Positions 51,847 to 53,232 of a stretch of 64,000 bases of DNA are shown in pieces. The notes below the pieces were generated by a model. It made no database searches. It saw only the letters and a list, made by a program, of their open reading frames with translations, and was not told the DNA's origin. A program made the translations under genes and the position numbers. Numbering within the stretch: the stretch's first letter is position 1; each line of letters starts with the position of its first letter. Source of the stretch: Oscillospiraceae bacterium (lineage in GTDB: Bacteria > Bacillota > Clostridia > UMGS1840); assembly GCA_015068645.1 (NCBI GenBank), contig SVKD01000008.1:1-64000 (forward strand), in the 5' to 3' direction.

Positions 51847-52554
51847 TCATATCTTATTGTTCTTTTTGCATTTTTGTTTCTTTTGCATCTTTTCCATTCT
51901 TCGCCAATTATAGAAGCTATATAAGTCGTTTGCCAAAAATACCAAAAAGCAAATCACCACGGATAAATAATTGATATCCCAAAAACAGGCAACACTCCAA
52001 AGCACAATCAGCACAATATCATTTAATGCATAAACCAAGGCAAAATAGGGACTTCTCCTTGCCATCAAATAACAAGCGCCAAAGCTGGTGGAAACGGATA
52101 AGGTGCTCCACCAAAGGTTGGGGGTATTCAGCCATTTTAACACAAAGTAGAAGACGGCAGTCACCATGGCGGTGAGGAGGACAAAAACACACCATTCTTT
52201 TTTACGGATGTGATTTACAGCAACCTGGGATTTTTTTCCTTGAAAGGGATTTTTTAACCAACATATAAAAGCGTATGCCGCCATAGGTACCGACATTCCC
52301 AGATAGGTGATCATTTCACCGTAGTACCTGGTGGAATAGGAAATATAGCCGTAGATTGAGCCAAACACAACCATCATCAGTTGTCCTATGGGATTTCCCT
52401 TGGCACAAAAAATCAGTGAAGTTACACCTAAAAGAGATGCAACGAGTACCAAAAAACTTTCCTGACGGAAAATAAAATAAGATGCGAGAATGGTTGCCAT
52501 AGACCCCAGCCAAAGTATCCATTCCCGTTTGGAAAAATAGGTCAAAATTTTCAT
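51847..52554 (-). CDS. pnuC: PnuC family nicotinamide riboside transporter
   Basis: 235 aa from ATG 52554, directly behind GGAGGAACG; the longer ATG at 52584 has no site and would lie in the leader. Seven to eight membrane helices. PnuC-type segments include FGSIYGYISYSTRYYGEMITYLGM and NLWWSTLSVSTSFGACYLMARR near the C-terminus. PnuC proteins carry vitamins by facilitated diffusion; most take nicotinamide riboside, while relatives take thiamine or riboflavin. The gene has its own promoter and an attenuator-like leader, so uptake is probably ligand-controlled. Confidence 0.87.
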   Translation of the reverse strand: MKILTYFSKREWILWLGSMATILASYFIFRQESFLVLVASLLGVTSLIFCAKGNPIGQLMMVVFGSIYGYISYSTRYYGEMITYLGMSVPMAAYAFICWLKNPFQGKKSQVAVNHIRKKEWCVFVLLTAMVTAVFYFVLKWLNTPNLWWSTLSVSTSFGACYLMARRSPYFALVYALNDIVLIVLWSVACFWDINYLSVVICFLVFLANDLYSFYNWRRMEKMQKKQKCKKNNKI

Positions 52555-52562
52555 CGTTCCTC

Positions 52563-52621
52563 CAATAAAAAAGCATCCGTCCATACAACTTCAAAGACCT
52601 AACGTTGTATGCCGAATGCTT
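52563..52621 (-). terminator. Attenuator hairpin before pnuC
   Basis: On the minus strand AAGCATTCG ... CGGATGCTT (52571-52621) encloses ATACAAC ... GTTGTAT and is followed by TTTTTTATT, just before the GGAGG site of pnuC. It looks like an intrinsic terminator acting inside the leader. Confidence 0.75.
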
Positions 52622-52680
52622 CCGCACGGATTCTACCCGGTGGCAGAATCCTTTTGATATCTTCAATTTTTTATCGTCTA
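52622..52680 (-). promoter_or_regulatory. Unassigned structured leader of pnuC (riboswitch candidate)
   Basis: Between the promoter and the attenuator: TTGA-AGATA-TCAA hairpin, a perfect 7-bp stem GGATTCT (52645-52651) with AGAATCC (52628-52634) and loop GCCACCGGGT, and TCCG-TG-CGGA (52621-52630), which overlaps the attenuator base and could act as part of an antiterminator. It does not have the CTGAGA and ACCTGAT elements of a TPP riboswitch nor an FMN core. Confidence 0.55.
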
Positions 52681-52681
52681 C

Positions 52682-52710
52682 AGTATAGCAAACAATGAGA
52701 CATTTGTCAA
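52682..52710 (-). promoter_or_regulatory. sigma-A promoter of pnuC
   Basis: Minus-strand TTGACA (52705-52710), 17-bp spacer, TATACT (52682-52687), located immediately after the nitroreductase stop codon. Confidence 0.85.
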
Positions 52711-52713
52711 GGG

Positions 52714-53232
52714 TTAAAAAGAATTGTAGCTGATTAAATCTTCCATGGGACGAAATTCATTGTGCATCGGGTAGGGAGCACTGTCTTCCGATGGATATCC
52801 CATCACCAGAAGAGCCACCGGTTCCAATTCTTCGGGAATGTTGTAGTTTTCTCTCATTGCTGCAGGGTCAAAGCTCATCACCCAGCAGGAACCAATACCC
52901 AATTCCCAGGCACCCAGCATCAGATGGGTGGTTACAATAGAGCAGTCAACAGGAGCGGATTTTGCACCATCATATCGGCGGGTCCAGCCTTCATTTTTGT
53001 TGTAACAAACAAGCATTGCCAAAGGCGCGTTAAAATGGCTTCTGGTGCAATTTGGAAGTTTGCTCAAGGTTTCTTTGGAGTCCAGCACCAAAATGCGTTG
53101 TGGCTGCATATTACAGCCTGTGGGAGCGATGTGTCCATAGGCTAAAATTTTCTCCACTAGTTCTTGGGGGACTTTTTTATCCAGAAAATTTCTGACAGAA
53201 TAACGGCTTTTTGCCAGTTCATAAAAGTTCAT
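52714..53232 (-). CDS. Nitroreductase family protein
   Basis: 172 aa. N-terminus SRYSVRNFLDKKVPQE and the APTGCNMQPQRILV segment are the FMN-binding signatures of the nitroreductase fold; C-terminus VALLVMGYPSEDS. It is probably an NAD(P)H-dependent flavin oxidoreductase; the substrate is unknown. The small size is typical of clostridial nitroreductases. It follows the PAP2 gene by 13 bases. Confidence 0.9.
   Translation of the reverse strand: MNFYELAKSRYSVRNFLDKKVPQELVEKILAYGHIAPTGCNMQPQRILVLDSKETLSKLPNCTRSHFNAPLAMLVCYNKNEGWTRRYDGAKSAPVDCSIVTTHLMLGAWELGIGSCWVMSFDPAAMRENYNIPEELEPVALLVMGYPSEDSAPYPMHNEFRPMEDLISYNSF

Follow-up and report, generated by a model that had tools for sequence, protein, structure and literature searches.

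What does the structured leader upstream of the pnuC-family gene in the window (the whole stretch of 64,000 nucleotides of Oscillospiraceae DNA analysed here) sense, and what does the gene that it controls transport? An earlier note on this DNA had read the leader as a riboswitch-type transcription attenuator of unassigned class, perhaps a new aptamer for nicotinamide riboside (NR), NAD or another vitamin. The attenuator itself held up: the leader is conserved and covarying, and a gene of the PnuC family lies downstream of it. Its sensor, however, looks like one that has already been described. We consider it very probable that the leader is a guanidine-IV transcriptional ON switch placed before a pnuC paralog, which is itself most likely a guanidinium exporter.

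All elements lie on the minus strand, in the order extended promoter, structured leader of ~110 nt with a strong intrinsic terminator, and pnuC (Table 1). The promoter, previously called strong, agrees with the consensus at 11 of 12 positions and has a TG before its -10 box; transcription would be expected to start near 52675. The leader folds at -43.2 kcal/mol compared with -24 +/- 3.4 kcal/mol in 200 dinucleotide shuffles (z = -5.66; no shuffle was as low), and this fold, together with covariation, bears out the structured leader with an intrinsic terminator just before the pnuC ribosome site that had been read by eye. The terminator was not listed in a scan for short-loop terminators because its loop exceeds the limit of that scan, and it was called from fold and covariation. 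The 3' arm of the small hairpin P2 is part of the terminator 5' strand. Directly upstream of the promoter lies a nitroreductase-family gene (52714-53232, minus strand), and in the nearest relative (L001) the end of this same gene likewise lies before the leader.

Table 1. Features of the pnuC leader in the window (coordinates are window positions)
Feature	Position	Strand	Basis or detail
Extended -10 sigma70-type promoter, TTGACA-17-TATACT	52682..52710	-	11/12 consensus matches
-35 box TTGACA	52710-52705	-	17-nt spacer to -10 box
-10 box TATACT	52687-52682	-	
P1 hairpin GGATTCTGCC-ACCG-GGTAGAATCC, 10 bp	52628..52651	-	fold and covariation
P1 loop ACCG	52641-52638	-	
P2, small candidate antiterminator hairpin GUGC-GGAA-GCAU	52616..52627	-	window segment -3.7 kcal/mol
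Intrinsic terminator hairpin, base GGAAGCATTCG / CGGATGCTTTT	52569..52623	-	fold and covariation
Terminator upper stem CATACAAC / GTTGTATG	52611-52604 with 52589-52582	-	
Terminator apical loop GTTAGGTCTTTGAA (also written GUUAGGUCUUUGAA), 14 nt	52590..52603	-	alignments
Kissing-pair 5' partner ACC	52639..52641	-	loop-loop covariation
Kissing-pair 3' partner GGT	52597..52599	-	loop-loop covariation
Terminator U-tract TTTTTT	52567..52572	-	read from sequence
Ribosome-binding site GGAGG	52559..52563	-	read from sequence
pnuC-family transporter gene, 235 aa, ND-type	51847..52554	-	ATG at 52554

A protein search of genome contigs with PnuC gave one close relative only, and leaders were therefore gathered by DNA pattern and covariance model. 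Close PnuC homologs were present in 4 of the 5 genus genomes searched (G000-G003), each with a leader carrying the core CUGCCACCGGGUAG ... CGUUAGGUC; in general form the core reads CUGCCACCGGGUAG ... CGUUAGGUCUUxGAAG. Of the 391 genomes of the class, 32 contain the exact two-part core pattern, and none matches its reversed control. A covariance model built from 34 sequences, mostly PnuC-linked copies, had matches in 70 of the 391 genomes of the class and in 23 of 399 genomes of the phylum; the window copy scored 83.8 bits (E = 1e-20) and is the sole strong copy in its genome. The RNA was not found on the sugE-bearing plasmids of Paraclostridium and Enterococcus. Among 94 aligned copies, 97.4% of pair cells held standard pairs (31-38% in slid controls) and 438 cells were double-changed (113 after shuffling), while the nearest relative keeps the long P1 with changed bases (GATTTC/GAAATC). 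Given such conservation and covariation, the leader is a true cis-regulatory RNA.

Covariation also extends to the two loops. With NCC in the first loop and GGN' in the second, the pairs are ACC/GGU in 69 copies, GCC/GGC in 17, GCC/GGU in 5 and CCC/GGG in 1. The variable loop-loop pair was Watson-Crick in 88 of the 94 copies, compared with 60.6 expected, and 0 of 10000 shuffles reached 88. This loop-loop covariation (A-U/G-C/C-G) is direct evidence for a pseudoknot.

In the guanidine-IV class (GGAM-1/mepA, reported in 2020), a pseudoknot connects two hairpins, and the one on the 3' side is a terminator (PMC7736828; PMC11611296; PMC12186494). The partners of this class are sugE, MATE and PnuC genes, guanidine induces readthrough, and export of guanidine by the PnuC partners was already a speculation of the authors (PMC7736828). 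Affinities near 60-250 uM have been reported for guanidine-IV. The leader has the same traits: two hairpins, of which the 3' one is an intrinsic terminator, a loop-loop pseudoknot, and homologs before sugE, MATE and PnuC genes. Judged by description (i.e., reported residue spacing and partners) rather than letter by letter against the L. lactis and C. botulinum RNAs, its architecture, core sequence and gene partners thus fit this already described class and not an unassigned aptamer, with guanidine as the presumed ligand of the window copy. Within the terminator loop, GUCUUUG at 52598-52592 matches, in a mapping by spacing only, the spacing G66 U67 ... G72 of the L. lactis binding nucleotides (G62, G66, U67, G72); this near-invariant apical loop is presumed to form the second half of the ligand-binding core. 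An early mapping of published residue numbers had suggested a U at the G62/D1 position, and this assignment was dropped.

The loops also bear on whether the RNA might be Gd4v or a third, ligand-shifted variant of guanidine-IV that senses a guanidine-like compound. Gd4v has nearly the whole guanidine-IV core in common and is gut-enriched (PMC9788692), the nearest named relative of the window copy is a Clostridia MAG from buffalo colon, and the substrate assigned to the window PnuC is our own reading. We nonetheless regard such a variant as unlikely, as the terminator loop always bears an additional hairpin (D2; PMC9788692) in the PRK07324-linked Gd4v subset. This hairpin is present in L136, L042 and L045 but absent from the window and PnuC-linked RNAs; without this loop-2 hairpin, the window copy does not fit Gd4v. 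Moreover, PnuC was listed with guanidine-IV in 2020 (PMC7736828), and the loops of SugE-, MATE- and PnuC-linked copies are near identical. As for the hairpin-bearing RNAs themselves, L136 (101-195, plus strand) is a Gd4v-like RNA with a CCC/GGG loop pair before an ornithine cyclodeaminase/mu-crystallin gene, and L042 (332-236), L045 (2948-2847) and L043 are IMG/VR copies that combine a guanidine-IV-like core and a loop-2 hairpin with no clear downstream gene.

Searches of Rfam 15 at gathering and permissive thresholds returned no significant match to a known riboswitch for the window, only chance matches (PyrR at 19 bits, BaMV_CRE and ZNRD1-AS1). Family models for NAD+-I / NAD+-II, TPP and FMN likewise gave no match to the leader even at E = 10 (Rfam 15 may not hold all of them), in line with the earlier impression that no such sensor was apparent. 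The sugE- and MATE-linked copies had no Rfam 15 match either, so that the missing match says nothing on novelty here; Rfam 15 is apparently without this guanidine-IV family. The same search is the source of a further reading, in which the leader is a protein-dependent attenuator (e.g., PyrR-like) rather than a riboswitch. This is highly improbable, as the PyrR match (E = 2.9) lies far below its 54-bit cut-off with no linked pyrimidine gene, homologs of the leader precede guanidine-related genes, and switching of the guanidine-IV class has been seen in vitro with ligand and E. coli RNA polymerase (PMC7736828).

Downstream of the 94 copies we found PnuC (49), MATE (20), SMR/sugE (6) and PNPOx-like (6) genes, while single copies precede DUF1989, OCD/COG2423 and other genes; these proportions are biased because the model was built mostly from PnuC-linked copies. 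The guanidine-IV-type RNAs at L053, L057, L069, L111, L112 and L133 lie upstream of small PNPOx-like proteins (PF12900), which possibly have a guanidine-related function.

The product of the window gene belongs to the PnuC family (PF04973 at 116.1 bits, cut-off 27.3; TIGR01528 at 78.6 bits, cut-off 42.45). The substrate-binding motif of PnuC is WxxW in TM6 (PMC7162841), and the extended motif WxxWxxxN is present in PnuC of N. mucosa (4QTN) and E. coli, in two phage PnuCs and in the nadR-linked PnuC of this genome. The window PnuC instead carries RSPYFALVYALND at this place, and all 46 RNA-linked PnuCs in which the region was readable have Asn-Asp where the motif aligns and lack the Trp pair. 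Among the PnuCs compared, the RNA accompanied 46 of the 56 ND-type proteins and none of the 39 others (Fisher p = 1e-17). This value overstates independence, given the common descent of the sequences and the use of the RNA itself to collect part of the RNA-linked set; the 0/39 is the robust part of this split. Ten ND-type PnuCs were without a full-length RNA match, one of which looks like a disrupted copy: in L174 (G025:C37; minus strand, reading downstream from 1137 as far as the pnuC start) the leader appears split, its 5' half intact and its 3' half (AAGTCTTAGAAGATATG...TTTTTTT) much further downstream, as if by insertion. An invariant acidic residue would suit a cationic substrate such as guanidinium, and the window PnuC probably carries guanidine out of the cell instead of bringing vitamin B3 in. 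A single-sequence AlphaFold model of the window PnuC was poor (pLDDT 56, pTM 0.35).

Genome G000 holds a second pnuC (C5:80171-80791), which has WxxWxxxN and no copy of the RNA. It stands in a row of NAD-salvage genes (L139 1231-5201; G000:C5, about 79230-83200) comprising an NrtR-like Nudix regulator, pnuC, nadR, a nicotinamidase-like gene (pncA) and a prs-like (ribose-phosphate pyrophosphokinase-like) gene, the last judged by eye from its translation. A search of G000 for an SMR gene found none. With a separate pnuC-nadR operon for NAD salvage and no SMR gene found, the genome can do without the window pnuC in NR salvage, and this gene may serve as its guanidine exporter. Genus relatives with the RNA-pnuC pair had only short partial matches to nadR.

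These observations leave little room for a new aptamer for NR, NAD or another vitamin, as the earlier note had suggested from the annotation of the downstream gene as a nicotinamide riboside transporter. The RNA did not accompany any of the 39 PnuCs of other types, those of the NR type included, and a separate NAD-salvage pnuC-nadR operon lacks it, which together make a vitamin B3 ligand unlikely; in addition, the same RNA precedes sugE and MATE genes, the window PnuC lacks WxxWxxxN, the relatives with the RNA have no more than partial nadR matches, and NAD-II, according to its description, switches expression OFF and acts near the ribosome-binding site (PMC7749635). We thus consider this alternative very unlikely, and guanidine remains the preferred ligand.

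The published model of guanidine-IV stresses antitermination without overlapping strands (PMC7736828; PMC11611296), and by that measure the PnuC-linked branch looks different. In its members, the linker from P1 to the terminator contains a strand that can pair with the 5' strand of the terminator base (e.g., GAATGC/GCATTC, GAATGT/ACATTC, AGTAC/GTACT or GGTAC/GTACC). This complementarity to the copy's own terminator spanned at least 5 bp in 35 of 46 PnuC-linked copies, a smaller set agreeing, and the mean score was 11.9 for own terminators vs. 9.7 when linkers were swapped among copies (0/1000 swaps). The P2 segment had a mean fold of -4.6 kcal/mol in PnuC-linked, -1.1 in MATE-linked and 0.0 in SMR-linked copies, and of 45 PnuC-linked relatives 41 reached -2 kcal/mol or lower; P1 had a median length of 6 bp in PnuC-linked copies vs. 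8 in MATE and 8.5 in SMR copies. Since P2 and the terminator base are mutually exclusive, we infer that P2 is the natural antiterminator of the PnuC-linked branch; sugE-linked members do not have it. This suggests a feature beyond the published descriptions of the class, with priority uncertain.

Two copies, that of the window and that of its nearest relative, depart from the usual pattern: P1 is long, and P2 is a 4-bp stem capped by a GNRA-type loop. Because P1 is long (10 bp) and P2 has 4 bp, antitermination by P2 may be weaker in the window copy than in its relatives. The TCCGTGCGGA segment, previously proposed as the switching strand, does touch both hairpins, but it is the small hairpin P2 (52627-52616) that is conserved as the switching element. 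Another candidate switch, formed by the P1 3' arm AUCCG and the terminator 3' strand, was rejected, as the pairing is possible in the window and lost in the nearest relative.

The mechanism that we propose takes guanidine binding and ON switching from the literature on the class, and adds our own readings of the ligand of the window copy, the role of P2 and the transport substrate. Without ligand, the terminator would form and pnuC would be off. With guanidinium bound, the P1 loop would dock on the terminator apical loop, ACC pairing with GGU; in the PnuC-linked branch, the linker would then fold as P2 and capture the 5' side of the terminator base. With this base unable to close next to the U-tract, RNA polymerase would read into pnuC, whose product, with an Asn-Asp pair instead of the NR-binding Trp/Asn motif, would export guanidinium. 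More broadly, we regard it as an even call whether the PnuC-linked RNAs are a sub-branch in which a strand-swap antiterminator (P2) replaces or supplements steric antitermination, having co-evolved with a PnuC clade whose invariant TM6 Asp makes a guanidinium exporter out of a vitamin B3 facilitator.

The locus is therefore one more example of a riboswitch class that was already known, and its gene association had been suggested before; the additions are P2 and the ND motif. This disposes of a false lead towards a new riboswitch for NAD or NR, and a strong, widespread riboswitch class turns out to be left unnamed by a search of Rfam 15. Many genes annotated as nicotinamide riboside transporters in this bacterial class are probably guanidine exporters instead, and ND vs. 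WxxWxxxN offers one motif to tell the two kinds of PnuC apart. P2, in turn, puts in question whether guanidine-IV always works without strand exchange.

Compared with known systems, the leader resembles guanidine-IV in its two hairpins, conserved loops and pseudoknot, 3' terminator, sugE/MATE/PnuC partners and lack of an extra loop hairpin. The PnuC-linked branch departs from guanidine-IV as published in its short P1 and in a P2 complementary to the terminator 5' base strand, and within this branch the window copy stands out by a long P1 and a short P2. Gd4v has the same overall fold and most of the conserved bases, but differs in its terminator-loop hairpin and its transaminase/OCD/GNAT partners, neither of which occurs in the window. 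NAD+-II (the pnuC motif) is likewise a leader of a pnuC-annotated gene; it regulates NR-type PnuC (PMC7749635), however, whereas the window leader ends in a terminator and precedes a PnuC without the NR-site motif. PnuC of Neisseria mucosa (PDB 4QTN), finally, is of the same family as the window protein (E = 6e-19 over 212 residues), but has WxxWxxxN in TM6 where window-type PnuCs have [YF][YF]AxxYxxND.
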